From Spirochaetales bacterium (GTDB lineage Bacteria > Spirochaetota > Spirochaetia > SZUA-6 > DRHE01): DNA of 57,520 nt. The first letter of the stretch is position 1. Each line of letters begins with the position of its first letter. A program made the translations under genes and the position numbers. The notes beneath the pieces are model-generated. The model did not search any database. It saw only the letters and a list, made by a program, of their open reading frames with translations, and was not told the DNA's origin. The stretch spans positions 1 through 57,520 of the forward strand of contig JAUWZD010000014.1 in assembly GCA_030615505.1 (NCBI GenBank), written 5' to 3'. Shown here piece by piece: positions 42,291-57,156 of the stretch.

Positions 42291-42321
42291 TTGACATGAA
42301 AAAATATCAGTCGTATATTTT
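42291..42321 (+). promoter_or_regulatory. promoter with overlapping dyad for the IclR/methyltransferase operon
   Basis: TTGACA (42291-42296), 17 bases, TATATT (42314-42319). AAAATAT (42301-42307) is repeated inverted as ATATTTT (42315-42321) around seven bases, covering the -10 box. The IclR-type gene follows directly, so repression by its own product is a reasonable model. Confidence 0.65.
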
Positions 42322-42348: not shown

Positions 42349-43119
42349 ATGACAAAGCTTCTTTCCTCTGTTAAAAAATCCATGAAAGTATTGGATACCT
42401 TCACTGAGGACCAACCGGAGATGAGTCTGACAGAAATAAGCAAGATCCTGCATTCACACAAAAGCTCAATTTCAAGAATCCTGATTACTCTATCGTCTGA
42501 TGGATTTGTTGAAAAGAATCCCCTGAATAACAAATATCGGCTCGGTTTGAAACTGCTCGATTTAGCCAATAGAGTATCGAACCGTTACGATTTAAGGGAG
42601 CATGCGGGCCCGTTTATGGAAAGCCTGGCTGAGAAAATAGGAGAAATCATCCATCTCTCCATTCTGGATGGAAATGAAATTGTTTATCTTGAAAAAAAGG
42701 GACAGGGACAGCCTCTAACCGTGGCTACAAGGGTTGGTGGAAGAAATCCCGCTCACTCATCAGCCATGGGAAAGGTGCTTTTATCCGGACTGTCTAAGAA
42801 AGAGCTGGCCGACGTTCTTGATGTTGGTCCTCTGGTTAAATTTACGCCCAACACCATAACAGAGATTCCGGAGCTGTTAAGAGAGCTTGAGCATGTAAAG
42901 GAGCAGGGTTTTGCACTGGATGATGAAGAATCTTTTCCGGGAATTCGCTGCGTGTCTGCTCCACTGTACAGCCGGGAAGGAAGAATCATCGCAGCCATAA
43001 GCGCCTCGGTTCCAAAACAGAGAATGGGAAACATGAGAATAAGAGAGATTCGCAAACAAGTTATTGAAACCGCTCGCTTGATTTCAGAGCGGATCAGCTT
43101 AAGCGGGTTAAAGGAGTAG
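42349..43119 (+). CDS. IclR-family transcriptional regulator
   Basis: A 256-residue regulator with an N-terminal winged helix ('MSLTEISKILHSHKSSISRILITLSSDGFVEKN') and a C-terminal ligand-binding domain ('SILDGNEIVYLEKKGQGQPL', 'NPAHSSAMGKVLLSGL', 'GFALDDEESFPGIRCVSAPLYS'). IclR proteins respond to small carboxylic or aromatic effectors. It is the first gene of the operon with the aminotransferase, corrinoid protein, methyltransferase and IorAB, and its stop is one base before the next start, so it is probably the local regulator of that pathway. Confidence 0.92.
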   Translation: MTKLLSSVKKSMKVLDTFTEDQPEMSLTEISKILHSHKSSISRILITLSSDGFVEKNPLNNKYRLGLKLLDLANRVSNRYDLREHAGPFMESLAEKIGEIIHLSILDGNEIVYLEKKGQGQPLTVATRVGGRNPAHSSAMGKVLLSGLSKKELADVLDVGPLVKFTPNTITEIPELLRELEHVKEQGFALDDEESFPGIRCVSAPLYSREGRIIAAISASVPKQRMGNMRIREIRKQVIETARLISERISLSGLKE

Positions 43120-43120
43120 T

Positions 43121-44227
43121 ATGAAAGACATGCAGAGATTTATACGAAGAGGAAACACTGAAATTGAACATTACGTGCCTGGTAAGTCTATTGAAGAGGT
43201 TCAGGCCGAACTGGGACTTTCAGAAATTGCAAAGATGGCGTCCAACGAGAATCCATTGGGACCGTCTCCTAAAGCTGTAGAGGCTATGGAAAAGGAACTC
43301 AAGAATGTCAACCTCTACCCTGATGCACCCTGCACATTACTCATTAGGGAGATGTCTGAGAGGCTGAGTATTGATCAGGATATGATCACTTTTTCCAACG
43401 GGGCCGACAACTGCATCAGATTGATAGGCAGTGCATTCATCAATGAAGGGGATGAGATTTTGATGGCCGATCCGACCTTTTTCGTTTACACGACTGCCGC
43501 TAGAATCATGGGGGGACGGCCTGTTTACATCAGCCTTAAGAAGCATGTCCATGACCTTAAGGCTATGCAGAAAAGAATCGGTCCCCGTACGAAGCTGGTC
43601 TTCGTTTGCAATCCGAACAATCCAACAGGGAGCATCGTAAGGAAAGATGAGCTGGACGATTTTGTATCCGAATTACCTGAGAACGCCGTTTTAGTTTTGG
43701 ATGAGGCATATAATGATTTTGTATCGGATGAAGGATATCCTGACGGTTTAGACTATATCAAAAAGGGACACAATGTAATATCCTTGCGCACCTTTTCCAA
43801 GCTGTACGGGATTGCCGGGCTGAGGATTGGCTATGCCCTGGGGCAGAGAGATTTCATTGCTGCATTGAACAGGGTGCGAGAGCCCTTTCCCGTCTCAAGA
43901 GTGGCTCAGGCTGCGGCTTTGGGCGCTTTGAAAGACGAAGAATTCAGAGAAAAGGTTCTAAAGAACAATGAGCAGGGAAAAACCTATCTATGTGAAGAGT
44001 TTGAAAAGATGGCCCTTCCCTATGTTCCTTCATACACCAATTTTGTCTTTGTGGATCTTAAGAGGGACTCAGAGGGGATCAGTCAATCTCTGTTAAGAAA
44101 GGGAATCGTAATCAGACCGGGCTGCCTGTGGAAATGTCCCTCATTCATAAGGGTCACGATCGGTACCACGGAAGAAAACAAAAAATTCATAAATGCCCTC
44201 AGGGAATGTATTGGATACGGCCCGTAA
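43121..44227 (+). CDS. HisC-like class I/II aminotransferase
   Basis: A 368-residue PLP enzyme of the histidinol-phosphate aminotransferase family: 'MASNENPLGPSPKAVEAM' (about 39-56), 'NPNNPTG' (164-170), 'VLDEAYNDF' with Asp194, Schiff-base Lys227 in 'LRTFSKLYGIAGLRIGY', and a C-terminal Arg in 'SFIRVTIGT'. Relatives accept aromatic and imidazole amino acids as well as histidinol phosphate. No histidine biosynthesis genes are near. Placed before an indolepyruvate oxidoreductase, it most likely turns an aromatic or heteroaromatic amino acid into its 2-oxo acid. Confidence 0.88.
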   Translation: MKDMQRFIRRGNTEIEHYVPGKSIEEVQAELGLSEIAKMASNENPLGPSPKAVEAMEKELKNVNLYPDAPCTLLIREMSERLSIDQDMITFSNGADNCIRLIGSAFINEGDEILMADPTFFVYTTAARIMGGRPVYISLKKHVHDLKAMQKRIGPRTKLVFVCNPNNPTGSIVRKDELDDFVSELPENAVLVLDEAYNDFVSDEGYPDGLDYIKKGHNVISLRTFSKLYGIAGLRIGYALGQRDFIAALNRVREPFPVSRVAQAAALGALKDEEFREKVLKNNEQGKTYLCEEFEKMALPYVPSYTNFVFVDLKRDSEGISQSLLRKGIVIRPGCLWKCPSFIRVTIGTTEENKKFINALRECIGYGP

Positions 44228-44279
44228 ATAGGGAATTAACCTTATAAAAGCAAAGTAAATAAGAGAGGAGGAGGTGCAT

Positions 44280-44912
44280 ATGTTACTGAAGGAACTAAGC
44301 GATGCAGTGGAATCGGGTGACAGGGACAGAAGCGAGATCTTAGCCGGAAAGCTGATGGATGAAGGAGCCGATCCCCTTCAGACGATCTCATCCCTGACAG
44401 AGGTGATGGGCGGGATTGGGGAAAGATTTTCCCGCCTTGAAATCTTTCTTCCTGAGATGATGCAGTCGGGAGAAGCCATGGCCGCTGCTGTAGCGGTTTT
44501 TACCCCAAAACTAAAGAAGGAGGAAGGCGGGAGTTCAAAGGGAAAAGTGGTCTTAGGCACTGTAAAGGGCGACCTGCATGAGATTGGTAAAAATATTGTG
44601 AAGCTGATGCTCGAAGCCAATGTCTTCCAGGTCAAAGACCTAGGGGTCGATGTGGATCCGCTGAACTTTATCAAGGAGGCTGTGGCTATGGATGCGGATG
44701 TTATTGCTGCTTCCTCGTTGATGACCACCACAATGCCCCATCAGAAGGAGATAATCGAGATTCTTAAGGATAAGGGCATGAGAGACAAGTACAAAGTTGT
44801 AATCGGCGGAGCCCCCACCACACAGGAGTGGGCTGATGAAATCGGGGCGGACCTTTACTGTCCCGATGCGGGTTCTGCTTCTCAGAAGATAACGGAGATC
44901 TTGAAAAAATAA
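44280..44912 (+). CDS. methyltransferase cognate corrinoid protein (MtmC/MtbC/MttC type)
   Basis: A 210-residue corrinoid carrier: helical cap ('SDAVESGDRDRSEILAGKLMDEGADPL', about residues 7-33) and the B12-binding Rossmann domain. His100 of 'GDLHEIGKNIV' is the lower cobalt ligand; 'ASSLMTTTM' and 'VVIGGAPTTQEWADEIGAD' complete the motif set. It carries the methyl group as methyl-Co(III) between two methyltransferases. ATG 44280 is preferred over GTG 44274 because of GAGGAGGAGG. It lies directly before the MtmB-like gene, so the two should be partners. Confidence 0.93.
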   Translation: MLLKELSDAVESGDRDRSEILAGKLMDEGADPLQTISSLTEVMGGIGERFSRLEIFLPEMMQSGEAMAAAVAVFTPKLKKEEGGSSKGKVVLGTVKGDLHEIGKNIVKLMLEANVFQVKDLGVDVDPLNFIKEAVAMDADVIAASSLMTTTMPHQKEIIEILKDKGMRDKYKVVIGGAPTTQEWADEIGADLYCPDAGSASQKITEILKK

Positions 44913-44960
44913 GTGATACAGATAACACAATAATGAAGCTTTTAGACAAGGAGGTATTGA

Positions 44961-46343
44961 ATGTCAAATCCGTATCGTCTCTGGGAGATTCAACAACGCT
45001 CAAATACCGGTCCATATTGCGATGAAGACGATTTTCTCCCCAAGATATTTACACCAAAACTGAAAGGTATTATCAAAAAGTACGAGATTAAATACGATCC
45101 GGAAAGACTAATTCCGGTTGATGACGATCTTGCCGATCGTGTATGGCAGGCAGGGTGGGAGCTTTTCCGGGAAGTGGGCCTTTACAACACGGATACCCAC
45201 CGGATTATAAAGGTCTCTGACGAAGAAATAAAAGAAGCCCTCTATATGGCCAGTGATCGATATTGGGTAGGGGCGGGAAAAGACGCTGTATTGTGGAAGC
45301 ACCGCCGGGTTGAGGACACTGAGCCGCCGTTTTGCTTATTCAGCCCGGACTGTACCTGCTCCGAGGAGCTCCACTACTCCATGTGCTTAGCCTTTTTGAA
45401 GGAACCGCTCCTCGATGGTTTTTGTGCACCTATTCTAGAAAATTCCATAGGCCTGAAGATTCGCTCCGCCTCCCCATTTGAGATAAACGGCTGTACACAG
45501 CATATCTACAACCTTCGCTTAGCCGCCAGGCAGGTCGGCCGACCCGGTGTTTTCCTTGTGGCCGTGGGAACGGCGGAACATGACAGCGGGCAGATCGCGG
45601 TATCCAATAATGAATGGGGAGTCCGGACAACCGATGCACGCATTATCGGAACACTTACAGAGTTTAAAACTGCAGATACAATGCTCAACCGTGTGGTTCA
45701 CTGCTGCCAGTATGGATGCTACTCCGGAAACTTAACAGGTCCTATCTACGGCGGATGGTGCGGGGGATCAGAAGGGATAGCAGTCGCCTTAGTGGCGTAC
45801 AGTCTCAACGGTCTGTGTATATACGGTTCCATTTTCAATCAGCACTTCCCCTTCCACTTAAACTGGGGATCCAATACGACCCGGGAGCTCTTGTGGCCAA
45901 TTGCTTCGGCCGGCCAGGCCATGGCCAGGAACAGCAAGCTTCTCTATACATCCAATGGATTCTCAAATGCAGGCCCTATGACCGAGATGGTTTTTTACGA
46001 AACGGCCTGCCATGCCTTAGTCAGTACTGTGACAGGCTGGCACCTTTGGGAGATGGCATCAGCCCGGAATAAATACAGGAACAGGGCAACACCTTTGGAA
46101 GCACGAATCGGCATGGAGGTAGGTCATGCAGCGGCACGCCAGGGTATGACAAGAGATAAGGCAAATGAAATTGCCTTAAAGCTTTTAGTTAGATACGAAG
46201 ACAGGGCGGCGGATGCTCCAATGGGTAAGGAATACCAGGAGTGTTACGATGTCGCCACGGCCCTTCCAACCCAGGAGCATTTCGATATGTACAGGCGGGT
46301 CAAGGATGAGCTATCCGATATGGGAATAGAATTTCCTTATTAA
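44961..46343 (+). CDS. MtmB-family methyltransferase lacking pyrrolysine
   Basis: A 460-residue protein that matches the length (458) and block order of archaeal monomethylamine:corrinoid methyltransferase MtmB: 'GLYNTDTHRIIKVSDEEI', 'VGAGKDAVLW', 'VGRPG', 'WGSNTTREL', 'SNAGPMTEM', 'LEARIGMEVGHAAA' and 'APMGKEYQECYDVATALPT'. In MtmB an in-frame UAG encodes pyrrolysine-202 shortly after 'GRPG'. Here the frame is unbroken and the aligned residue is about Val200 in 'GRPGVFLVAV'. Methyl transfer to the corrinoid protein at 44280 is therefore likely, but from a substrate other than free methylamine. The match rests on my recollection of the family, not a database search. AAGGAGG precedes the ATG. 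Confidence 0.85.
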   Translation: MSNPYRLWEIQQRSNTGPYCDEDDFLPKIFTPKLKGIIKKYEIKYDPERLIPVDDDLADRVWQAGWELFREVGLYNTDTHRIIKVSDEEIKEALYMASDRYWVGAGKDAVLWKHRRVEDTEPPFCLFSPDCTCSEELHYSMCLAFLKEPLLDGFCAPILENSIGLKIRSASPFEINGCTQHIYNLRLAARQVGRPGVFLVAVGTAEHDSGQIAVSNNEWGVRTTDARIIGTLTEFKTADTMLNRVVHCCQYGCYSGNLTGPIYGGWCGGSEGIAVALVAYSLNGLCIYGSIFNQHFPFHLNWGSNTTRELLWPIASAGQAMARNSKLLYTSNGFSNAGPMTEMVFYETACHALVSTVTGWHLWEMASARNKYRNRATPLEARIGMEVGHAAARQGMTRDKANEIALKLLVRYEDRAADAPMGKEYQECYDVATALPTQEHFDMYRRVKDELSDMGIEFPY

Positions 46344-46357
46344 ATAAGGGGCAAAGC

Positions 46358-48226
46358 ATGAAGCGTATGATCAGCGGCAATCAGGCAGTGGCTTTTGCCG
46401 CTTTGGAAGCAGGAATAGAGCTGGCTTCAGGATATCCGGGAACCCCTTCCACGGAAGCTTTAACTGAGATTTGTAATTTCTCAAAAATAAACGATCCCTC
46501 TCCTTATGTTGAATGGAGCACGAACGAGAAAGTGGCCTTTGAGATAGCAGCCGGAGCGGCGTGGGCCGGAAAGAGGGCCTTAGTAACCATGAAGATGTCC
46601 GGAGCTAATGTTGCTCTGGATTCCATTGTGTCCGTGGCCTACTCAGGGACAATCGGCGGCCTGGTCATCTATATGGCCGATGACCCCGGTGCAGAAGCAG
46701 GAATGCCGGAGCAGGATTCAAGATACTTTGCTCTTCTTGCGGGACTGCCTCTGCTGGATCCCTCAAGCCCCGGGCGGGCATTTCATTTAACAAAGTATGC
46801 TTTCAAGCTCTCTGAAGCTGTTGAGCTGCCGGTCATACTCAGAGCCGTTACTTCGGTTGCTCATACTAAGGAGATAGTAGAGGCGGATTACAGATATCAT
46901 CCCCTTGCCAGGAAACCGGAATTCAAAAGGGACATATTGCGATTTACCAAGGCGGGGTCTGCGATTTGTGTTGATCAGCATAAGACTCTATTAGATAGAC
47001 TCAAGCTTTCTAAAGATGTTATGCACACCCATAAGATAAATCAGATTCATCTGAACGGCGGGAATGAGAAAAGAGGATTATGCGTAATAAGCTCCGGGGT
47101 TTTAAATCATGATGTTGATGAAATCTTAAGTTCACGACCCGGGATCTCCTCCCTTAAATTGGAAGCAATTTACCCCCTCGATGAAGATAATATAACCGGG
47201 GTGCTGAAGAACTCCGAAGGGATCGTCATATTCGAAGAGCTTGAACCTGTAGTAGAGATGCTCGTGCGGAGCCTGGCATCCGGGCTGAACTGGAAGGGGA
47301 GAATCATCGGTAAACTAGACGGTGTTCTACCCAGAACCGGAAGATACTCCTCTAAGGAGATACTGAAAGGGATAAATGAGCTTGAGGGAAACGAGAGGCA
47401 GGAGGAGGTCGGAACAAAGACACAAACCTACAAGCATCCTATTACCTTTTGTGCCGGATGTCCCCACAGGGGAACATATGTAGCACTTAACCGTGTGCTT
47501 AAGAGACTTAAACTCAAGAAAGAGGAGACCGTTGTTACGGGCGATATAGGCTGTACGATCCTCGGTATGAACCCGCCGATCGATTCCTGCTGGACAGAGG
47601 TTTCCATGGGCTCGAGTATAGGTCTTGCCCAGGGTCTTGCATTAAGCGGCCTAAAAGCTCCTGTAATTGCCACAATCGGGGATTCAACTTTTTTCCACGC
47701 CGGTATTCCCCCGCTTATAAATGCAGCTCAGCATAATTCAGATATATTGGTGATTATTTTGGATAACGGCTGGACCAGCATGACCGGTTTCCAGATCAAT
47801 CCCGGTACGGAAGAGATGCTCCAGGGCGGTAATAACAGGAGGGTTGATATTGAAAAGATCGTAAGGGCCATTGGTGTGGATTACCTGGAGATAATAGACC
47901 CGTTCAAACAGGAAGATTCCGTAGAAGCAATCAGTAAAGCAATTCAAGCAGGTGGCGTGAGAGTAATAATTGCTAAGAGAGAATGTGCTTTGACTGCATT
48001 GAGAAGGGAAGGGCGGGAAATAAAATTTCGAATTTACCATGAGAAGTGCACTTTCTGCAGATCATGCATGAGAGAAACGGGATGCCCGGCCCTTGAAGTT
48101 AAGACTATCCGGGATAAGCAGGTTATGAGCATTGATGCAGACCAGTGCACGGGCTGCGGACTATGTGCAACGTGCTGTTCATTTGGGGCGATTAACCCGG
48201 CTGATCAGTCCGGACAAGGAGCTTAA
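46358..48226 (+). CDS. iorA: indolepyruvate ferredoxin oxidoreductase, alpha subunit
   Basis: A 622-residue IorA: N-terminal pyrimidine domain ('SGYPGTPSTEALTEI', 'VEWSTNEKVAFEIAAGAAWAG'), TPP-binding domain ('VVTGDIGCTILGMNPP', 'IGDSTFFHAGIPPLINA', 'ILDNGWTSMTG') and a C-terminal ferredoxin-like part with two cluster motifs ('CTFCRSCMRETGCP', 'CTGCGLCATCCSFGAI'). With IorB it converts aryl pyruvates and CoA to aryl-acetyl-CoA, CO2 and reduced ferredoxin. Cytoplasmic. It lies 14 bases after the methyltransferase gene, in the same operon. Confidence 0.94.
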   Translation: MKRMISGNQAVAFAALEAGIELASGYPGTPSTEALTEICNFSKINDPSPYVEWSTNEKVAFEIAAGAAWAGKRALVTMKMSGANVALDSIVSVAYSGTIGGLVIYMADDPGAEAGMPEQDSRYFALLAGLPLLDPSSPGRAFHLTKYAFKLSEAVELPVILRAVTSVAHTKEIVEADYRYHPLARKPEFKRDILRFTKAGSAICVDQHKTLLDRLKLSKDVMHTHKINQIHLNGGNEKRGLCVISSGVLNHDVDEILSSRPGISSLKLEAIYPLDEDNITGVLKNSEGIVIFEELEPVVEMLVRSLASGLNWKGRIIGKLDGVLPRTGRYSSKEILKGINELEGNERQEEVGTKTQTYKHPITFCAGCPHRGTYVALNRVLKRLKLKKEETVVTGDIGCTILGMNPPIDSCWTEVSMGSSIGLAQGLALSGLKAPVIATIGDSTFFHAGIPPLINAAQHNSDILVIILDNGWTSMTGFQINPGTEEMLQGGNNRRVDIEKIVRAIGVDYLEIIDPFKQEDSVEAISKAIQAGGVRVIIAKRECALTALRREGREIKFRIYHEKCTFCRSCMRETGCPALEVKTIRDKQVMSIDADQCTGCGLCATCCSFGAINPADQSGQGA

Positions 48227-48229
48227 AAT

Positions 48230-48835
48230 ATGTCTGAAAATCTGTTTGTTACCGGCGTGGGGGGTCAGGGAACCATTACGCTCTGCAATTTGATTGCTGA
48301 GCATGCATCGGATCATGGCTTTAGAACCTCTTTTTTCCAATCAAGGGGTATGGCTCACAGGGGAGGAAGAGTGACCGGTGAAATAAGGATAGCAGAGAAT
48401 GAAGATGAGAGCTTCGGCCCGCGCATTTCTCAAGACGGCGCGGATATTCTTATTGGAATGGAGATTGCCGAGTTGATCAATTCCTATTCCTATTTGAAAG
48501 AGGGAGGAATCGTAATAATAGTTAACTATTCCTATATACCGTCAGAGGTAATTCTTAAGAAGAAAGAGTTTCCCTCCCTACAGCAGGCAGTTGAGCTTTT
48601 CTCTAAAAAAACAAAGCAAATCTATTCAGCCGTCGAGCAGGTCAATCCGGTTAATCTCTTTACTTTAGGCTTATTTTCTGCAGTAAAGAGCTCTTTTAAG
48701 GTTGAGTCTGATATTTTTTCCTGCATCAGTTTAGAAAAAACAATAATGAATAAAATGAAAAGAAATAAGGAAGAGAACATCAAGGCCTTCAGGCTGGGAT
48801 ATGAGTATGGAAAAAAAACTAAAGAGATCTTTTGA
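48230..48835 (+). CDS. iorB: indolepyruvate ferredoxin oxidoreductase, beta subunit
   Basis: A 201-residue gamma-domain subunit of 2-oxoacid:ferredoxin oxidoreductases: 'FVTGVGGQGTITLCNLIAEHA', 'SFFQSRGMAHRGGRVTGEIRI' and 'ADILIGMEIAEL'. It pairs with IorA (3 bases between the genes). The C-terminal 'AFRLGYEYGKK' is usual. Its end overlaps the start of the acyl-CoA synthetase gene by 35 bases. Confidence 0.92.
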   Translation: MSENLFVTGVGGQGTITLCNLIAEHASDHGFRTSFFQSRGMAHRGGRVTGEIRIAENEDESFGPRISQDGADILIGMEIAELINSYSYLKEGGIVIIVNYSYIPSEVILKKKEFPSLQQAVELFSKKTKQIYSAVEQVNPVNLFTLGLFSAVKSSFKVESDIFSCISLEKTIMNKMKRNKEENIKAFRLGYEYGKKTKEIF

Positions 48836-50864
48836 GAGTTTATTCTATCCCGGAAAAGTAGCCGTATTCGGCTCAGTTAAAGAGAAAAAAATCGGAAATC
48901 AGGTTATTACACAGATGTTAAATGGCAATTTCAAAGGAGAGATATTTGCCGTAAATCCTAAGGGTGAGAAACCTGAAGGCTATCCATCTATTCCGGGCAT
49001 GCCGGATATAAATGAGGTTCAGGGCGGAATTGATCTGGCCATTATTACCGTACCTGCCCGATTTGTTGCAGAAACCCTTGAGAAATGCGGTTCAGGCGGA
49101 GTGCCCATTGCCGTGGTATTGAGCTCAGGTTTTTCCGAGGTGGGTAATATTGAAGGTGAAAGAAGGATAACTGAAGTTTCCAGGGAATTTGGGATAAGGG
49201 TAATCGGTCCCAACTGCGCCGGTATTATGAATACTAAGAGCTCGCTCTTTGCAAGTATTGAGGTCAAGGCCCTGCCGGGAAGCACAGGATTTATCACTCA
49301 AAGCGGAGCGGTGGGCGGAGCTGTACTGGCCATGGCTGAAAACAGGGGCATCGGATTCTCTAAATTCGTGAGTTACGGGAATAGGGCGGATATTGGTGAA
49401 TTGGAGCTTTTGGAGTATCTGGCTGATGATGAAGATACGGATGTTATTGCCATGTATATTGAAAGCATTGATAGGGGGTTTGAGTTTCTCCGTATCGCCG
49501 GAAGCGCTGCTCAAAAAAAGCCTTTTATACTCATCAAATCGGGCAGGAGCGGCTCCGGTATGAGGGCGGCCAGTTCACATACCGGCTCCATGGCAGGAGC
49601 GGATGCTGTTTTTGATGTGGCATTTAAACAACTCGGGATTATTCGGGCTGCAGGAATAGAAGAGATGCTTGATCTATGTGACGGGTTCAATCATCTTCCC
49701 CGGCTCTCAGGCAGAGATATTGCAATAATTACAAACTCAGGCGGACCTGGAATTTTAACCGCCGACCGCGCCGAAGAGTTCGGGCTTTCTGTGCCGGAGC
49801 CTGGTCTTAAATTGAAGAGCAGACTAAGGAGCTTTCTATCCGAAAATTGCTCCCTGGGCAACCCTGTAGACCTGACGGTAGAAGGCTCCGGCCTGAATTT
49901 CAAAAGAGCCATAGATGCCATGATCGAGGATAAATACAGCGGCGTAATCGCGATTAATGTTGCAACACCCTTTTTAGATTCCCTGGAACTTGCCCGGGGC
50001 ATAACCGGGGCAGGCAGAGGGCTTAAGGTCAAAAAGCCTGTTGCCGCTGTTTTTATGGCCGGTGAAATCGTGGAAGAGGCTGTAGAATTCCTTAAACAGA
50101 ACAATGTTCCCGTATTTCCCACAGGGGAGAGGGCTGCTTTTGTTTTCTCAAAGCTCTTCGAGTATTACTCTCATAAACATAGGGCCAAAGAGACAGAGGA
50201 AGCCGGAGAAAAGGAACTGCCCCTAACCGCACCTGTTTTGGAGCCGGAAGCCGCCGCTTTCCTAAAAGAGCATGATTTTCCTGTACCCGAATGCATCCAT
50301 ATCAAGTCCAAAGATGAGCTTGAGCATAGAGCCGGGGATTTAAGTTTTCCTTTAGTCATGAAGGTCGTTTCACCAGAGATTATTCATAAAAGTGATTCAG
50401 GCGGAGTTGTGCTGAACATTGAGAGCATGAATCGGCTCCGGGATGTCTATCCGGAGATAGAGAGAAAGTTCTCTGACCGTGGGTTCAGAGGAGTCCTGCT
50501 GTATGAGCAGATCCTTAAGGGTGTTGAGACAATAGTGGGAATGAAACGGGACCCACTGTTCGGGCCAGTTATCATCGCAGGAGCGGGGGGAGTTTTAGCA
50601 GAGCTTATCAGGGATATATCAATAAGAATTGCACCGGTGGATAAGCTTGATGCTGAAGAAATGATATCCGCTCTTAAAATAAACAAGCTCTTATCCGGCT
50701 TCCGGGGAGGTCCTGAATGCAACAGGAAAGCACTGGCTGAGTTAATAGTGATGCTGTCTCAGTTATCTTTGGAGTATCCCTCCCTATTGGAAATAGATCT
50801 TAACCCTGTTTTCGTATCTGAAAAGGATGTAGTAATAGCCGATGTGCGGATAATAGTGGAATAG
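48801..50864 (+). CDS. acyl-CoA synthetase (ADP-forming), alpha-beta fusion
   Basis: A 687-residue ADP-forming acetate/aryl-acetate--CoA ligase. The CoA-binding domain comes first ('FYPGKVAVFGSVKEKKIGNQV'), followed by the ligase domains with phospho-His260 in 'AASSHTGSMAGADAVFD'. The ATP-grasp beta part follows from about residue 470 ('FPLVMKVVSPEIIHKSDSGGVVLNI', 'IAGAGGVLAELIRD', 'LEIDLNPVF'). It makes ATP from an acyl-CoA plus ADP and phosphate. After IorAB it completes the peptide-fermentation sequence 2-oxo acid to acyl-CoA to acid + ATP. Starts at 48801 and 48807 are both possible. Confidence 0.92.
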   Translation: MSMEKKLKRSFESLFYPGKVAVFGSVKEKKIGNQVITQMLNGNFKGEIFAVNPKGEKPEGYPSIPGMPDINEVQGGIDLAIITVPARFVAETLEKCGSGGVPIAVVLSSGFSEVGNIEGERRITEVSREFGIRVIGPNCAGIMNTKSSLFASIEVKALPGSTGFITQSGAVGGAVLAMAENRGIGFSKFVSYGNRADIGELELLEYLADDEDTDVIAMYIESIDRGFEFLRIAGSAAQKKPFILIKSGRSGSGMRAASSHTGSMAGADAVFDVAFKQLGIIRAAGIEEMLDLCDGFNHLPRLSGRDIAIITNSGGPGILTADRAEEFGLSVPEPGLKLKSRLRSFLSENCSLGNPVDLTVEGSGLNFKRAIDAMIEDKYSGVIAINVATPFLDSLELARGITGAGRGLKVKKPVAAVFMAGEIVEEAVEFLKQNNVPVFPTGERAAFVFSKLFEYYSHKHRAKETEEAGEKELPLTAPVLEPEAAAFLKEHDFPVPECIHIKSKDELEHRAGDLSFPLVMKVVSPEIIHKSDSGGVVLNIESMNRLRDVYPEIERKFSDRGFRGVLLYEQILKGVETIVGMKRDPLFGPVIIAGAGGVLAELIRDISIRIAPVDKLDAEEMISALKINKLLSGFRGGPECNRKALAELIVMLSQLSLEYPSLLEIDLNPVFVSEKDVVIADVRIIVE

Positions 50865-50935: not shown

Positions 50936-53002
50936 ATGAAATTTTATTTTATAAAGATACGATATCGCATATTTACCTTTTTTATAGTAATCAGTTTGAT
51001 TGAAGTTTTCTTTTTATTCTTTGTGACCACTACTTTTTTAAAAAGAGATAGTATTAACTCAATAAAGAAGGATCTGTCTACCTCTGCTGAAGATACTCTT
51101 AAGCAATTAGAAGATAGAAAAGGATATTTAAGGAGTTTACTTGTAGAGGCTTCGCTTTTTTTAGATCCTGAAAGATTGGAATTGAACGTCAATTTCAAAT
51201 CAGATCATTTTGAAAAAGTCTATTTTGTTCATTTGTATGGTAAAATTGTTTTATTACAAGGAAAAACAGAATTCGATAGAATATTTTTCTGTACTGAATA
51301 TTCCGAAGTATATTCGGATTATTTTATTGAACAGGGGAATTTAAATATTGTAAATGTCTGTCCCGTTTATTTTAACAAGAAGGATAGTTTGAAAAGAATA
51401 TTTTCAGGAAGCCTTGTAGGGATAACAAAATTAAATAATTATGATTTAAGAGAGCTTGCCAAAAAGAATAATATTGATATTGCTATTACTTATTACAACC
51501 GTTCAATATTATCGAGTTTTGCCGAGTTTTCACATAAAAGCTTAAAATCTATGGGAGATGCATCATTGCTTATTATACAGGGTATGCCTTACTTGATAGA
51601 AAAGAAAGCATATTCCGATAATGTGATGCTTTTATACAGTTCTGAAGTTTTTTTTGCAAAGAGTTTTTTACCTGTTTTAGGCCAAATTAATAGAATTACA
51701 AATAATATAATAATCTTTTTTTTAGTATTTATATTGCTGCTGTTCATTGCTGCAATAGTTATTTCTTGGCAGACAACCAAACCGATATCAAATCTTATTA
51801 ATGCTATTCAGAAAGTAGGTATTGGTGATTATGAAGCAAGAGTTAATGTGAGGGTAAAAGATGAGATTGGGATTTTAGCGTCTGAGTTTAATAAGATGAT
51901 AAAAAAGATAGCATCTGCACGCGAATCCATGATCAAGTATACAGAAGATATTAAGCTTCTTCAATTATATAATTACTATATTATTGAATCTATACCGGAA
52001 CCATTGCTTACATCTGATAAAACATTAAAAATAGAATATTTCAATAATGCATCTAAAAAATTATTCGGACAGATAAAAGACAGAACCGATTTAAAGACAT
52101 TATTCTTAAAAGTATTTAAGAATGACGACTATAATGAAATTATTAATGCAGTAAAAACTGAAAGAGAGATATTTAAGAAGAATATTATATTAAAAAACAA
52201 TCATATCTATAATATTTCTACTCATATTGTTAAGTTACAGAATAAAGATCTCAATAAATCCATTATATATTTTCAAGATATAACTGATATTATTAAAATG
52301 GAATCAAGAATACTGCAATCAGAAAGGCTTTCATCCCTTGGCATATTAAGCGCAGGGATCGCGCATGAAATAAATAATCCTCTTGGGGCTATTCTAAGCC
52401 ATGTACAGCTATTAAAGGAGGATACGAATATAAGTGATGCAGGGCATGAGTCGTTAAAATGGATTGAATCGGAGACAAGAAGGATCGATGGTATTGTTAC
52501 AAAGCTGCTTAATTTTGCCTCTATAGATTCAGATAATAGCAATGAAAGCTGTAATCCCGAAACTGCATTAAGATTGACGCTTGATTTTATAAGCCATTTT
52601 GCTAAGAGAAATAAAGTACTTTTCGAAATAGAACTGTCCGATGAAGATATTTCTGTTATTACGGGCATTGAAGAGCTAAAACAGGTTTTTTTAAATTTAT
52701 TTTTAAATTCAATTACAGCAATGGAAAATAGCACTGAAAAAAATATAAAGATAGTATCCAGCGTATTAGACAAAAACTGGCAGGTCATTATTTCGGATAC
52801 AGGATGCGGTTTCAAATCTGAAGACAGCTTAAAGATATTTGATCCATTTTTTACTACAAGACAGGGAAGAGGAGGGACAGGATTGGGTTTATCCTTATGT
52901 TTTCGAATAATTAAGAAAGCAGGTGGGAGTATTGAAGCTATGCCAATCGATTATGGCGCAAGGTTTGTAATTTTAATGCCAATAAACGGAAGGAAAAAAT
53001 GA
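50936..53002 (+). CDS. NtrB-like sensor histidine kinase with HAMP and PAS domains
   Basis: A 688-residue membrane protein: helix 12-34, a periplasmic sensor domain (35-255), second helix 256-278, HAMP (280-325). A PAS domain follows (about 343-455, 'SIPEPLLTSDKTLKIEYFNNAS'), then the kinase core with His477 in 'SAGIAHEINNPLGAILSHVQLL', 'LNLFLNSITAME' (N-box), 'DTGCGF' and 'GGTGLGLSL'. Much more AT-rich than the operon before it. It overlaps the response regulator gene by four bases. It probably senses the ligand-bound lipoprotein encoded at 54375. Confidence 0.9.
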   Translation: MKFYFIKIRYRIFTFFIVISLIEVFFLFFVTTTFLKRDSINSIKKDLSTSAEDTLKQLEDRKGYLRSLLVEASLFLDPERLELNVNFKSDHFEKVYFVHLYGKIVLLQGKTEFDRIFFCTEYSEVYSDYFIEQGNLNIVNVCPVYFNKKDSLKRIFSGSLVGITKLNNYDLRELAKKNNIDIAITYYNRSILSSFAEFSHKSLKSMGDASLLIIQGMPYLIEKKAYSDNVMLLYSSEVFFAKSFLPVLGQINRITNNIIIFFLVFILLLFIAAIVISWQTTKPISNLINAIQKVGIGDYEARVNVRVKDEIGILASEFNKMIKKIASARESMIKYTEDIKLLQLYNYYIIESIPEPLLTSDKTLKIEYFNNASKKLFGQIKDRTDLKTLFLKVFKNDDYNEIINAVKTEREIFKKNIILKNNHIYNISTHIVKLQNKDLNKSIIYFQDITDIIKMESRILQSERLSSLGILSAGIAHEINNPLGAILSHVQLLKEDTNISDAGHESLKWIESETRRIDGIVTKLLNFASIDSDNSNESCNPETALRLTLDFISHFAKRNKVLFEIELSDEDISVITGIEELKQVFLNLFLNSITAMENSTEKNIKIVSSVLDKNWQVIISDTGCGFKSEDSLKIFDPFFTTRQGRGGTGLGLSLCFRIIKKAGGSIEAMPIDYGARFVILMPINGRKK

Positions 53003-54387
53003 AAAAGGTATATATTATTGACGATGAGGAATCAATTAGATCGGCATTGGATATAACCATAAAAAAGATGCGGATGCAGGCGGTATTGTTTGATAATGCA
53101 GAAGATGCTTTTTTAGAATATGAAAATCAAAATGACGCAGATCTTATTATTACAGATCTTGTACTTCCCGGCTGGGACGGTATGAAACTGATTTCAAAAA
53201 TGAAAAGCATTTATAATTCCCCACCAATAATTGTAATAACTTCTTACGGAACAATTCCTAAAGCTGTAAGTGCAATAAAAATGGGAGCCTTTGATTTTAT
53301 TACAAAACCTTTCGAGATTGAACGTATTAGAACCAGTATAGGAAATGCACTTAAATTAAGAAAAATCGAGGGCGAAAATAAAAGATTAAAGGCCGCATTG
53401 GAGATATTCCAAACGCATCCGGAAATATTATATAGAAGCAAAGCAATGCAGAATATAATTGATACAGTTAATAAAATAAGCTGTGCAGAAGTACCTGTTC
53501 TTATTTCCGGTGAAACCGGAACTGGAAAAGAACTACTTGCAAAGGCCATTCATAATAAGAGCAATAGGAGTTCAAATCCTTTTATAGCGGTCAATTGCTC
53601 TGTTTTATCCGGTTCTCTGCTTTTAAGTGAACTCTTTGGCCATGAAAAGGGGGCCTTTACAGGCGCTGAAAATGCTCGCATTGGTAGATTTGAGCTTGCA
53701 GATAAAGGAACGTTATTTTTTGATGAGATTGGTGACATGGAGCTGGATGTGCAGTCCAAAATATTGAGAGTTCTGGAAAACGGATGCTTTATGAGATTGG
53801 GCGGAGAAAGACTGATAAAAGTTAATGTCAGAGTAATTTCTGCAACCAATAGGGATTTAAAACGCCTGGTGGTCGAAGGAATATTCAGAGAGGATCTTTA
53901 TCATAGATTAAAAGTTATAGAGATAAAACTTCCACCTTTAAGTGAGAGAGAAGAAGATTCTTTGCTTATTGCTAAAGAGTTCATAAAGGAGTTTTCTATC
54001 AAATACGATAAGAAAGGTCTTTATCTTAGTAGAGAAGCTGAAAAAGCCATTAAATCTTATATATTTACAGGAAATATAAGGGAATTAAAAAACAGGATTG
54101 AAAGAGCTGTATTATTAACGGATAAGCCATTGATAGAAAGGAATTTCCTTTTTGAATCTGATGAGTGTGATAGAGGAAGTATTGATAGCGGATATAATGA
54201 ATCAATTAACGAACAGAATCTTAGATATGCTGTAAAGGCTTTAAAAGCCGATTTTGAAATACAAAGAATAAGAAATGCGCTTAAAATATGCAGGGGCAAT
54301 AGAACGGAAACCGCTAAATATCTTGGTCTTTCGCGTAAAGGATTAAGGGAAAAGATGATTAAATACAATATCACATGGCAAAAATAA
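52999..54387 (+). CDS. NtrC-like sigma-54-dependent response regulator
   Basis: A 462-residue activator: receiver domain with phospho-acceptor Asp53 ('LIITDLVLPGWDG'), AAA+ domain with Walker A 'GETGTGKE', the sigma-54 contact motif 'GAFTGA' in 'GHEKGAFTGAENARIGRFE', Walker B 'GTLFFDEIGDM', and a C-terminal Fis-type HTH ('GNRTETAKYLGLSRKGLREKM'). It activates sigma-54 RNA polymerase when phosphorylated by the kinase upstream. A GG-N10-GC promoter at 55810-55823 is a likely target. Its end overlaps the lipoprotein gene by 13 bases. Confidence 0.95.
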   Translation: MKKVYIIDDEESIRSALDITIKKMRMQAVLFDNAEDAFLEYENQNDADLIITDLVLPGWDGMKLISKMKSIYNSPPIIVITSYGTIPKAVSAIKMGAFDFITKPFEIERIRTSIGNALKLRKIEGENKRLKAALEIFQTHPEILYRSKAMQNIIDTVNKISCAEVPVLISGETGTGKELLAKAIHNKSNRSSNPFIAVNCSVLSGSLLLSELFGHEKGAFTGAENARIGRFELADKGTLFFDEIGDMELDVQSKILRVLENGCFMRLGGERLIKVNVRVISATNRDLKRLVVEGIFREDLYHRLKVIEIKLPPLSEREEDSLLIAKEFIKEFSIKYDKKGLYLSREAEKAIKSYIFTGNIRELKNRIERAVLLTDKPLIERNFLFESDECDRGSIDSGYNESINEQNLRYAVKALKADFEIQRIRNALKICRGNRTETAKYLGLSRKGLREKMIKYNITWQK

Positions 54388-55598
54388 GACCTTTTATAAT
54401 TATCAGCTTTATTCTATTGTTTTCGGCCTGTTTTTCAAACGAAAGAAAGTCAGAACAGGTAATTATTAGTTACTGGACAACTTCAAATCAAGATACCAAG
54501 CAACTGGAATTGGAATTAATAATGGAGTTTCAGAAGAAGTATCCATACATCTCTGTAATAAGAAGAGATTACAATACAAGCGATTATGCTAAAATATTAT
54601 ATAATGCTTTTAATTCAAATAATGCCCCTGATATTTTTACTCTTAATGCAGCATTCAGTATGCCACTAATTACTGATGGGCATTTAGAGCCTCTAAATAT
54701 TTCATTGCTTGAATATGAGAATGTGTATGAATTAATAGAAAAATATATTCCCGGGAGCTTGCTCGGCGCAACCTATTGGAATCAGATATTTGGATTGCCG
54801 GTGGAAACAAGTAATCTGTGCCTTGTGATAATAAATGATTCCTTTAAAGGCAATATTAAGACATTTGAGGAACTGCTTGAATATTCTAAAATAAATTCCA
54901 TGGTAAAAAATATAGATAAGAATATCATAGTTTATTTTAATATTAATGACGACCAGCCTGTCTTATGGTTTTCGGCAATGCTTTCCCAGTTGGGAGGGAA
55001 ACTGGTAATTCCGGAATTAAGAAGAGCCTCGATCAATAATAAGGCCGGAAGGTATCTTTTTAAATATCTATCTGAATTCAGAGACAGGGGTCTTGAGAGT
55101 CCATTTATTTTTTTCAACAACTCAACTGCATTTTTTTGCAGTATGCAGCAGATTTTTCAGGCAATAAAAGCAAATCCCGATAATATTAATAAGATTAGTG
55201 TATTTAAATTTCCTCGTTTTAAAACCAGAATATTTGACAATGGTTCCGATCTTTATCTTAAGTATTTTTATGTAAATAGTCATTCTGATTTGGTAAAAAG
55301 AAAGGCCGGCTGGATGCTTGCTGATTGGTTAACTTCACATCCATTTAAATATCTTAAGAATGCAGGTGTTATACAGCCTAATAAAAGGCTTTTTAAGGAT
55401 TATTTTAAAGATCCAATTCCTTTTTGCGATATATTTATTGAAGATATAGAGAATTGCCGGTTTCCACAATTTCTCCCTGAATTTAAAAAGATAAACAGGA
55501 CAGTTATAGATTTTATTAGCTATTTCTTTAATTCAGAAATTACACCTTCTAAGGCTGCGGAGATGCTGCAGGCTGAAATTGATAATATCCTGAAATAG
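54375..55598 (+). CDS. solute-binding lipoprotein, ABC family 1, coupled to the two-component genes
   Basis: A 407-residue lipoprotein: signal peptide with lipobox 'LFSAC' (Cys19), then a family-1 extracellular solute-binding fold ('ISYWTTSNQDTKQLELELIMEF', 'APDIFTLNAAFSMPL', 'IFGLPVETSNLCLVI'). It is a paralog by pattern of the transport binding protein at 55861 ('VYWTHEDPNRTLLEEAYIEEF', 'LYGLPLEITNWCIFM'). It has no permease of its own and overlaps the response regulator gene, so a sensing role for the kinase is more likely than transport. No SD outside the upstream gene. Confidence 0.82.
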   Translation: MAKIRPFIIISFILLFSACFSNERKSEQVIISYWTTSNQDTKQLELELIMEFQKKYPYISVIRRDYNTSDYAKILYNAFNSNNAPDIFTLNAAFSMPLITDGHLEPLNISLLEYENVYELIEKYIPGSLLGATYWNQIFGLPVETSNLCLVIINDSFKGNIKTFEELLEYSKINSMVKNIDKNIIVYFNINDDQPVLWFSAMLSQLGGKLVIPELRRASINNKAGRYLFKYLSEFRDRGLESPFIFFNNSTAFFCSMQQIFQAIKANPDNINKISVFKFPRFKTRIFDNGSDLYLKYFYVNSHSDLVKRKAGWMLADWLTSHPFKYLKNAGVIQPNKRLFKDYFKDPIPFCDIFIEDIENCRFPQFLPEFKKINRTVIDFISYFFNSEITPSKAAEMLQAEIDNILK

Positions 55599-55606
55599 AT
55601 AATGTT

Positions 55607-55640
55607 ACCCAATGGTTCCATAAATGTAACCATTGGGTTT
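55607..55640 (+). terminator. terminator after the two-component/lipoprotein operon
   Basis: ACCCAATGGTT (55607-55617) pairs with AACCATTGGGT (55628-55638), an 11-base stem with a 10-base loop, followed by only two T. It lies 9 bases after the stop codon; a weak U-run makes it a modest terminator. Confidence 0.6.
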
Positions 55641-55765
55641 CAAAACCAGTCGTTTTTTTAAAAGCTAAAGCTAAAATTGAAATTGACATAATTTATATAT
55701 AAGATTGTATACTTCTTTTTGTAATTAATTATCTTATAAGACATTATAAAATTAGTACGAGATTT

Positions 55766-55785
55766 TACCCATACACGTATAGGTA
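55766..55785. promoter_or_regulatory. 20-bp dyad, candidate activator site
   Basis: TACC-C-ATAC-AC-GTAT-A-GGTA is symmetric except for one pair. It is centred about 47 bases upstream of the sigma-54 -12 element. The Fis-type activator encoded at 52999 would bind a dyad of this kind; the distance is shorter than usual for enhancers. Confidence 0.5.
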
Positions 55786-55807
55786 ATTAATTATGAAAAT
55801 GTGTTGA

Positions 55808-55824
55808 TTGGCATGTTAATTGCT
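55808..55824 (+). promoter_or_regulatory. sigma-54-type promoter for the sugar ABC transporter
   Basis: TTGGCATGTTAATTGCT matches the -24/-12 consensus, with GG (55810-55811) and GC (55822-55823) separated by exactly ten bases. The first gene starts at 55861 with AAGGAGG. A sigma-54 activator gene lies just upstream. Confidence 0.75.
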
Positions 55825-55860
55825 ATGAATTATATAAAAATACTCTAAAGGAGGGCGTGT

Positions 55861-57156
55861 ATGAAAGCCGCTAAGTCTTTGATTATATTAATTTTTCTTA
55901 CTGGTGGATTGGTTTTGGCTTTTGCCGGTGGGCAGGCTGAAAAGGAAAAGCCGATTAAACTGGTTTACTGGACCCATGAAGACCCCAACAGGACACTACT
56001 TGAGGAAGCTTATATTGAGGAGTTTAAAATAGAAAATCCTCAAGTATTAGTTGTAAGGGAGACAACTCCTTCAAAAAAGATGAAGGAAAAGATATTAACG
56101 GCGTTTGCTGCAGGAAAGGGGCCTGATATCTTTAACAGGGATTCTGATGAGGAGTTCCAGTACATTGTAAACGGAAGGGTGGCTCCTGTTAATATTTCTG
56201 CACTTGGATATAAAAACCTCGATGCTTTAATAAAAGATTATCTGCCAGGAACCTTCGACGGCGCAATATATAAGGGAAAATTGTACGGGCTGCCGCTTGA
56301 GATTACCAACTGGTGCATATTCATGAATAATAGATATTTTAAAGAGGTAGGGCTTGATCCTGGAAAAGATCATCCAAAGACCTGGGAGCAAATGGTTAAT
56401 GTTGCAGAAAAGCTCACAATAAGGGATGGCGAAGTAATTACAAGAAGAGGTTTTGATTTCAGATATCCGTACTATTTCCAGTTCTTAGTGCCCATGGTCA
56501 ATCAATTAGGCGGTACCGTATTATCCAAAGATAGAAAAACCGCAGCAATCGATTCTCCTGACTGGATTAAGGTATTGGATTATATGCAGCAGTGGGGGCC
56601 GAACGGTCTGAATCTGGGTACTCCGACCTACAAGAATGCACGAAGAACTTTTAATAAGGATGACAACTCAGTTGCCATGTGTACTACAGGATTATACCAG
56701 GTGGCGAGAATAAGGAAAGAAAATCCCGATTTGCTTAACTATATTTCAATAGTTCCATATCCAAGATTTAAAGATGCCGTTAATGATAACGGTTGCGCTA
56801 TTTACGGCCACTATCTGATGGTAAACTCCCAGGCTTCAAAAGAAAATCAGGAAGCTGCCTGGAAGTTGATCATGCATATGGTAAGCCATGTTGAAGATTA
56901 TGTGGAAAAGTGCGGGCTCATCATTCCCAGTAAAGAGCTTTTAGCGAGTGCTAAGTTCAAATCAATAAAATGGGCAGATGTATTTACCGGCGATCTGTCA
57001 AAATCGAATTTTGTATTCCTGCATAAAGATGGGCAGAGGATACAGGAAGTGATAAGGGAGCTTGTTGAAGCAGTAATGCTTACAGAAGCTCAGCCGGCAG
57101 ATGCAGCGGGGAAGGCAAAAGCGAAGATTAATGAAATCTTAAAAGAAAGCTTATAA
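55861..57156 (+). CDS. ABC sugar transporter substrate-binding protein
   Basis: A 431-residue periplasmic binding protein of family 1. The signal peptide 'LIILIFLTGGLVLAFAGGQAEKEK' cleaves before 'GGQAE', without a lipobox. The mature part has 'VYWTHEDPNRT', 'GPDIFNRDSDEEFQYI', 'YGLPLEITNWCIFMNNRYFKEVGLDP', 'PKTWEQMVNVAEKL' and 'NDNGCAIYGHYLMVNS'. It delivers a sugar or oligosaccharide to the permease encoded next. The gene is separated from the permease by a terminator-like hairpin, so it is probably made in excess. Expression probably needs sigma-54 and the regulator at 52999. Confidence 0.92.
   Translation: MKAAKSLIILIFLTGGLVLAFAGGQAEKEKPIKLVYWTHEDPNRTLLEEAYIEEFKIENPQVLVVRETTPSKKMKEKILTAFAAGKGPDIFNRDSDEEFQYIVNGRVAPVNISALGYKNLDALIKDYLPGTFDGAIYKGKLYGLPLEITNWCIFMNNRYFKEVGLDPGKDHPKTWEQMVNVAEKLTIRDGEVITRRGFDFRYPYYFQFLVPMVNQLGGTVLSKDRKTAAIDSPDWIKVLDYMQQWGPNGLNLGTPTYKNARRTFNKDDNSVAMCTTGLYQVARIRKENPDLLNYISIVPYPRFKDAVNDNGCAIYGHYLMVNSQASKENQEAAWKLIMHMVSHVEDYVEKCGLIIPSKELLASAKFKSIKWADVFTGDLSKSNFVFLHKDGQRIQEVIRELVEAVMLTEAQPADAAGKAKAKINEILKESL

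Follow-up and report, generated by a model that had tools for sequence, protein, structure and literature searches.

An operon of a Spirochaetales bacterium that joins a non-pyrrolysine MtmB homologue to a predicted amino-acid fermentation module

Why should a corrinoid-dependent methyltransferase be encoded in one operon with an aminotransferase, a 2-oxoacid:ferredoxin oxidoreductase and an ATP-forming synthetase? The question is raised by seven genes at positions 42349-50864 of a 57,520-nt stretch of DNA from a Spirochaetales bacterium (hereafter the window; all positions refer to its full length), which corresponds to contig C111 of a host genome of 4.44 Mb in 171 contigs that is 93% complete. 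Directly observed are the gene identities, their close packing, the absence of pyrrolysine (Pyl), the recurrent linkage of the two halves of the operon in other genomes and an acetyl-CoA synthase match in the host genome. The explanation that we favour, with moderate confidence, is that a methylated amino acid is demethylated in a corrinoid-dependent step and that this step is linked, in an IclR-controlled catabolic operon, to transamination, oxidative decarboxylation and the formation of ATP.

The seven open reading frames all lie on the + strand, head to tail, as the original prediction, made from the letters of the window alone, had laid them out, and the spacing between consecutive genes is only 1, 46, 48, 14, 3 and −35 nt. 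A purine-rich stretch resembling a ribosome site precedes five of the six internal starts, the exception being the last gene, which overlaps its predecessor. The first gene encodes an IclR-family regulator (42349-43119; IclR_C PF01614, 168 bits; PF09339), and 29 nt ahead of its ATG sits a candidate sigma-70-type promoter (TTGACA-17-TATATT, 42291-42319, + strand). This is the best site of the region, with 11 of 12 positions agreeing with the consensus, and is proposed by consensus match only, from a scan that as a whole was hardly above chance (18 sites, compared with a mean of 13.2 and a standard deviation of 3.5 in shuffled sequences). There follow a HisC-type, pyridoxal phosphate-dependent aminotransferase of subfamily I-beta (43121-44227; TIGR01141 hisC, 337.4 bits, cut-off 276.55), in which the catalytic Lys and Arg are conserved, and a corrinoid-binding protein of the MtmC/MtbC type, the predicted methyl acceptor (44274-44912; B12-binding and B12-binding_2 domains; TIGR02370, 193.6 bits, below the cut-off of 215.3), whose sequence contains DLHEIG, which we take to be the DxHxxG motif. 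The fourth gene encodes the MtmB homologue, a predicted substrate:corrinoid methyltransferase (44961-46343; PF05369 MtmB, 312.7 bits, cut-off 25). The second half of the operon consists of an IorA-like large subunit of a 2-oxoacid:ferredoxin oxidoreductase with a C-terminal 4Fe-4S domain (46358-48226; POR_N, TPP_enzyme_C and Fer4; TIGR03336), an IorB-like small subunit (48230-48835; PF01558, 82 bits; best NCBIfam models those of the indolepyruvate oxidoreductase beta subunit, all below cut-off) and a fused alpha-beta ADP-forming acyl-CoA synthetase (ACS; 48801-50864; CoA_binding, Succ_CoA_lig and ATP-grasp_5), which overlaps the IorB gene by 35 nt. Together, IorA and IorB show the domain set of indolepyruvate oxidoreductases (IOR), that is, POR_N, TPP_enzyme_C and 4Fe-4S domains plus a separate subunit of the POR gamma type. 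The best solved-structure matches of ACS are the ADP-forming CoA ligases 8wzu and 9y43, followed by 2csu and 4xyl, and all NCBIfam models matched by this protein score below their cut-offs. Pfam and NCBIfam models agree with the gene classes given in the original prediction, except that IorA and IorB stay below the equivalog cut-offs that would make them indolepyruvate enzymes.

The methyltransferase had been described as a Pyl-free homologue of MtmB, and this description is borne out: the frame is open, a valine occupies the column of Pyl202, and no PylS match was detected at E ≤ 0.001 in the host genome at its present completeness. An in-frame stop is likewise absent from the three MtmB and nine MttB matches of this genome (one of the latter being a contig-end fragment). 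Valine is found at the Pyl202 column in 23 of 23 aligned members of the clade, including the window protein; this count covers 23 of the 24 proteins of the census presented below, leaving out L030, of which only 150 residues are available. At MtmB columns 229, 259 and 333, the window protein has Ile, Leu and Asn, and the 23 clade members have Ile or Leu, Leu, and Asn (Gly in one). We take Glu229, Glu259 and Gln333 of MtmB to be the polar residues of the Pyl site, Glu229 and Glu259 contacting Pyl. An AlphaFold model of the window protein (pLDDT 91.3) superimposes on MtmB (1l2q) with a TM score of 0.95, a root-mean-square deviation of 1.5 Å and 28% identity in the structural alignment. The window pair resembles the Pyl-dependent MtmB/MtmC of Methanosarcina in its fold and its corrinoid partner, but differs in its low identity, in the valine at the Pyl202 column, in the replacement of the Glu229 and Glu259 columns and in its gene context. 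A Pyl-free enzyme is chemically conceivable, as a protonated N-methylimidazole is a better leaving group than methylammonium. In another genome of the same family, G401, a PylS match of 281.5 bits (cut-off 178.15) is present at contig C49:20844-21554 (L154), and the host family seems to be split in its use of Pyl.

Is the association of the two halves peculiar to the window? Our census comprises the window and 23 of the 26 loci retrieved by a scan of genome contigs, with neighbours considered within 10 kb of MtmB (L and G numbers are labels of loci and genomes of relatives; L008, L026 and L030 correspond to G399, G397 and G400, and L010 and L012 come from the same genome). Three loci were left out: L029 (55% identical), which is truncated at the end of its contig, as well as L031 and L032 (30-38%). 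The 24 loci are from spirochaetes (five, including the window), Aminicenantes (L009), Anaerolineae (L027) and Desulfobacterota/deltaproteobacteria (17). The corrinoid gene lies at most 200 bp upstream of MtmB in 22 loci, the other two being cut by contig ends. An aminotransferase is present in five loci, of the HisC type in the window, L008, L009 and L030 and of class I in L007, and these are exactly the five in which IorA, IorB and ACS all occur. The chance of such a coincidence would be 2.4e-5 for independent and complete loci, a figure that overstates the case since this assumption is only partly true. Neither the aminotransferase nor IorAB plus ACS was seen in the other 19 loci, ten of which have less than 5 kb of DNA on one side (L013, L014, L015, L016, L017, L019, L020, L025, L026 and L028); the remaining nine, including L027, extend for 6 kb or more in either direction. 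Adjacency of the aminotransferase and IorAB genes to MtmB, a check proposed in the original prediction, is found in the five module-bearing loci and was not seen in the others. The link between a corrinoid methyltransferase and an aminotransferase-IorAB-ACS module, which the same prediction had put forward, is upheld by this joint occurrence and by the linkage of IorA described below: the association is real but lineage-limited. In the genome of L026 (G397), the end of a separate contig (L141) carries a corrinoid protein fragment 71% identical to that of the window, an IclR gene and, about 2 kb from the fragment, a HisC gene at 40% identity, and a close IorA-IorB-ACS set is present on contig C29. 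Relatives of the IclR regulator (58-68%) lie beside the same MtmB clade in L007, L008, L027 and L030.

Two other features recur in these neighbourhoods. In eight Desulfobacterota/deltaproteobacterial loci (L021:7777-8475 and seven relatives), MtmB is followed by a protein of 232-270 aa with an invariant C-terminal KCxxC...CQxR, for which no Pfam match was found in the one member scanned; it presumably resembles the activation proteins of B12-dependent methionine synthase, acting in corrinoid activation, and offers no clue to the substrate. A trio consisting of a formate-dehydrogenase-like molybdoprotein, a small ferredoxin-like protein and a PadH-like flavoprotein accompanies MtmB loci in Desulfobacterota and spirochaetes (L131:1586-5429, L139:3204-7047, L021:8501-12492).

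The linkage is also apparent from the side of the fermentation genes. Among the 26 genomes of the order, MtmB matches are present in seven, exactly the seven of the host family, and close IorA orthologues (59-68%) are confined to this family. In all six judgeable loci (the window, L007, L008/G399, L030/G400, G397:C29 and G398:C142), about 6 kb or less separates the close IorA from a gene of the MtmB family; G396:C346 and G398:C366 were not counted, as their contigs are too short to show the neighbour. Eight IorA copies of lower identity (35-41%) in the family lie outside these loci. They share no contig with an MtmB match except in G399, whose genome is a single contig and where the distance exceeds 300 kb; most family genomes are drafts, so that nearness to MtmB across contig ends is possible for these copies. 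The operon region of G399 additionally contains a divergent IorA-IorB pair, which follows MttB (L008:13019-15484; IorA 41-43% and IorB 26% identical to those of the window), upstream of which lies the orthologous pair. Close HisC orthologues (54-59%) occur among the same 26 genomes only in G398, G399 and G400, each time beside an MtmB-family gene, and no other HisC protein of the order exceeds 42% identity to that of the operon. In phylogenetic trees, the IorA proteins of the window, L007, L008, L030, G396 and G397 form one clade, as do the HisC proteins of the window, L008, L030 and G398. L009 (Aminicenantes) falls outside both, and its ACS is also outside the clade of the window gene. Because the module of L009 is non-orthologous and the aminotransferase of the spirochaete L007 belongs to a different class, the combination of methyltransferase and fermentation module has probably been assembled more than once. 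In three relatives, ACS is directly adjoined by members of three different hydrolase families (phosphotriesterase-like, L132:1513-2520; Amidohydro_2, L129:538-1332; ureohydrolase, L007:1300-2286).

How might the two halves work together? We infer all reactions, the order of their steps, their regulation and their substrate. The methyl donor would be a cationic ('onium') methylated compound of amino-acid type, from which the non-Pyl MtmB homologue would pass a methyl group on to its corrinoid partner; this methyl could then enter the tetrahydrofolate/Wood-Ljungdahl route. Transamination of the amino acid by the HisC-type enzyme would yield a 2-oxo acid, which IorAB would oxidize to acyl-CoA with reduction of ferredoxin, and the ADP-forming synthetase would release the free acid with formation of ATP. 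That demethylation comes first is an assumption, and the methyl group could also be removed at a later step. We think that this group is on the side chain of the amino acid, because the transaminase needs a free alpha-amino group and the operon has one methyltransferase. The host genome contains a match to CdhC, the acetyl-CoA synthase, and three matches to the pterin-binding domain, and on contig C39 (L072) a RACo-like gene is the neighbour of an MttB gene and a corrinoid gene. The entry of methyl groups into the Wood-Ljungdahl pathway is plausible in view of these matches. Within the phylum, MtmB matches were obtained in nine of 392 sampled genomes, the best besides those of the host itself being at 53% identity.

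A second MtmB clade bears on the same question. On host contig C81, MtmB and a corrinoid gene are associated with a D-2-hydroxyacid dehydrogenase and a sodium/solute symporter (NCBIfam scores below cut-offs), and this dehydrogenase is 63% identical to one beside IorA in L008. In G397, a set of the C81 type adjoins IorA, IorB and ACS, together with a GlcD-like flavoprotein, and in G398, HisC, IclR, symporter, dehydrogenase and an MtmB fragment are found on one contig; in both genomes, the MtmB neighbour of the close IorA belongs to the C81-type clade and not to that of the window. In L009, the two clades occur in tandem, followed by HisC. The presence of C81-type MtmB with a 2-hydroxyacid dehydrogenase beside IorAB and ACS or beside HisC suggests a single 2-oxo acid to which both the amino acid and the 2-hydroxy acid are converted. 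It is tempting, if rather speculative, to imagine that the two sister non-Pyl clades demethylate the two N-methylhistidines, or else other amino and hydroxy acids methylated on the side chain, whose product would be fermented by the aminotransferase, IorAB and the ADP-forming synthetase; we consider this elaboration doubtful. Genes of about 556 aa near IorA and on C81 had been considered as candidates for urocanase and turned out to encode GlcD-like flavoproteins (G396 and G397) and a CsgG/LpoB-like protein (C81). A third MtmB clade is found in three genomes of the family in a set with MttB, an ornithine-cyclodeaminase-like dehydrogenase and a corrinoid protein (L066, host contig C8 1579-6123; L143, G401; L144, G400), which is putatively another locus for a methylated compound.

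Which amino acid could be the substrate? Transporters beside relatives of MtmB are of amino-acid type, and an amino-acid-like substrate fits them. An SBP_bac_3-type binding protein lies near MtmB in six of the 24 loci (recognized by Pfam in one and by similarity in the others) and its ATPase in seven. The best match of the binding protein in the PDB is 9e2b, a family 3 periplasmic subunit, followed by the ancestral reconstruction AncCDT-1 and 3k4u, and the NCBIfam models nearest to the system are those of cystine, lysine/arginine/ornithine and glutamine systems, all below cut-off. G400 has a peptide-type SBP_bac_5 system, and L009 an SNF symporter and an M19 dipeptidase. According to the accessible text of two studies on Thermococcales, aromatic amino acids are degraded there by an aminotransferase, a 2-oxoacid:ferredoxin oxidoreductase and an NDP-forming synthetase, and histidine is tied to a synthetase with specificity for 2-(imidazol-4-yl)acetate (PMC9986279, PMC3942289). 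The three enzyme classes and the energy logic of that route (for His, Phe, Tyr and Trp), including the imidazoleacetyl-CoA synthetase for histidine, are the same as in the operon; it differs in that corrinoid demethylation is not mentioned in this text and that the oxidoreductase of the histidine branch is not known there (PMC9986279, PMC3942289). In the same accessible material, ACS4 of P. furiosus uses imidazole-4-acetate, and none of the ten ACS enzymes of this organism used the lysine-derived acid (PMC3942289), which speaks against trimethyllysine. N-methylhistidine is the best-fitting and most economical guess, as it would account at once for a HisC-type aminotransferase, for IorAB and ACS and for a transporter of polar amino acids, and we propose it tentatively, as one possible substrate within the reading that we favour. 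S-methylmethionine, trimethyllysine and other side-chain-methylated amino acids together take up the remaining probability. An arginine derivative is a weak lead, drawn from the ureohydrolase beside ACS in L007 and from the aminotransferase of that locus, whose nearest model is one of the guanitoxin pathway; both scores are below cut-off. A link to purines was considered in view of xanthine-dehydrogenase-like genes (L009 and L027) and carbamoyltransferases (L027 and C81), and was set aside, since scoring of two of these three carbamoyltransferases let each pass as an ordinary aspartate carbamoyltransferase.

Several observations weigh against the coupled demethylation and fermentation of a single amino acid. 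The same MtmB clade (70-83% identical) is present in the 17 Desulfobacterota/deltaproteobacterial loci, where HisC, IorAB and ACS were not seen in the available DNA (up to 10 kb, with at least 6 kb on each side in eight of the 17), and its methyl donor therefore need not be a substrate of the aminotransferase. Similarly, in the Anaerolineae locus L027, with an MtmB 90% identical to that of the window, 10 kb on each side contain neither an aminotransferase nor IorAB plus ACS. The IOR equivalog cut-offs are missed by IorA (TIGR03336, 578 versus 650.9 bits) and by IorB (TIGR03334, 80.9 versus 205.8 bits). The HisC pocket has Asp, Phe, Val and Phe at mArAT positions 86, 110, 112 and 246, and most HisC proteins of the order, as well as that of Listeria, also have Asp/Phe/x/Phe, so that the substrate cannot be read from these residues; in the histidinol phosphate enzyme of M. 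tuberculosis, HspAT, the pocket is reported in the accessible text as Asn, Tyr, Met and Tyr (PMC4703992). The operon HisC is moreover the sole homologue in the genome above the hisC cut-off (the next best are a CobD-like protein and a 224-bit match), and HisB is present on contig C153; the operon HisC itself lies outside a histidine operon, next to methyltransferase and IorAB genes. A biosynthetic role is thus possible too, and the operon HisC may serve histidine synthesis in addition. The original prediction had named a methylated (hetero)aromatic amino acid: its amino-acid-like nature agrees with the transporters, whereas its (hetero)aromatic nature finds no support in the generic HisC pocket, the missed IorA and IorB cut-offs or the 17 loci in which the module was not seen.

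That the aminotransferase is nothing but an ordinary biosynthetic HisC, placed in the operon by accident, would agree with its generic pocket, its lone position above the equivalog cut-off and the location of HisB on another contig. We nevertheless judge it very improbable: its close orthologues in G398, G399 and G400 share an MtmB-family neighbour, and G399 and G400 carry a second HisC at 41% identity (about 27 kb from MtmB in G399, and with one stop in the matched frame in G400). The methyltransferase half could be deceptive instead. MtqB uses tetramethylammonium and choline; according to its authors, no function had been demonstrated for a non-Pyl MtmB before it, which makes it the only one tested, and the accessible text of their 2026 study describes a single tree of 1,061 MtmB sequences with and without Pyl (PMC13044021). 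If the window protein were of this type, acting on choline, tetramethylammonium or a similar quaternary amine, HisC, IorAB and ACS would ferment an unrelated amino acid, and the two halves would share only a regulator and a lifestyle. MttB genes within 10 kb of MtmB in 13 of the 24 loci would fit quaternary amines, as would the 19 loci in which the fermentation genes were not seen. However, aminotransferase and IorAB-ACS appear together in the five of the 24 census loci that have either, from non-orthologous sources in L009 and L007, IorA orthologues also lie beside the second MtmB clade, and the solute-binding protein near MtmB in six relatives is of amino-acid type. This explanation strikes us as unlikely, although less so than the other alternatives.

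The remaining alternatives keep the two halves coupled and change the compound. A sulfonium substrate, S-methylmethionine (and, for the second clade, 4-dimethylsulfonio-2-hydroxybutyrate), would be demethylated, and the resulting methionine or hydroxy acid would be converted through 4-methylthio-2-oxobutyrate and 3-methylthiopropionyl-CoA to 3-methylthiopropionate and ATP. The D-2-hydroxyacid dehydrogenase linked to the second clade on C81 and in G397 and G398, and the GlcD-like flavoprotein adjoining IorA in G396 and G397, are in line with such a route, and Pyrococcus ACS enzymes use 3-methylthiopropionate in the accessible part of the report (PMC3942289). It is unlikely, however, as no sulfur-specific metabolic gene was recognized among the scanned neighbours and the best-fitting IorA model, though below cut-off, is of the indolepyruvate type. 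Alternatively, several methyltransferases could strip the methyl groups in turn from an alpha-N-trimethylated amino acid, that is, a betaine of histidine or of an aromatic amino acid, before transamination. The abundance of MttB and MtmB matches in the host genome and the position of MttB at most 52 bp after MtmB in L008, L026 and L028 would suit this scheme, which appears quite unlikely to us, since the window operon contains no MttB, and since, according to the accessible text, Pyl is present in the known M. barkeri methyltransferases for tri-, di- and monomethylamine (PMC9842639), yet the host genome has no PylS match.

The best reading of the operon is that both halves are known kinds of machinery, a module of the Thermococcales type having been joined to a non-Pyl MtmB. 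The nearest counterpart of the methyltransferase half is MtqBC of Methanococcoides methylutens Q3c, also a non-Pyl MtmB homologue with an adjacent corrinoid gene and no Pyl; compared by description only, it differs in being archaeal, in feeding methanogenesis, in its substrates and in that no aminotransferase, IorAB or ACS is mentioned in the accessible text (PMC13044021). Quaternary-amine demethylation by the MttB superfamily (MtgB, MtcB and MtyB), as far as the accessible descriptions go, likewise employs a non-Pyl TIM-barrel methyltransferase and a corrinoid protein, but the enzyme is of another family (PF06253). MtpB is presumably a further enzyme of this kind. For the MttB superfamily, we know of no example where the product of demethylation is fermented by enzymes encoded next door, and among the titles and opening abstract lines of open-licence PMC papers we recognized no description of the two halves united in one operon. 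The operon thus gives a contextual clue for another non-Pyl MtmB clade, namely its link to a complete amino-acid fermentation module. If the reading is true, sediment anaerobes combine the metabolism of methyl groups with the fermentation of amino acids in a single operon, and there would be an anaerobic route by which a class of methylated amino acids is degraded. Should the two sister clades act as imagined above, this would amount to an anaerobic 'methylotrophic amino-acid fermentation', with the methyl group serving the Wood-Ljungdahl pathway and the carbon skeleton yielding ATP. One clade member (L017) belongs to a named strain, Desulfocicer vacuolatum DSM 3385, in which the methyl donor is directly testable.

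A + strand sensor kinase gene starts 71 nt after the last operon gene and was excluded from the operon; together with a sigma-54 response regulator it forms a pair that is followed by two SBP_bac_1/8 solute-binding proteins (50936-57156). Upstream, positions 17995-22512 encode a multi-domain flavin/iron-sulfur oxidoreductase of 1505 aa, which we take to be HdrA-like.

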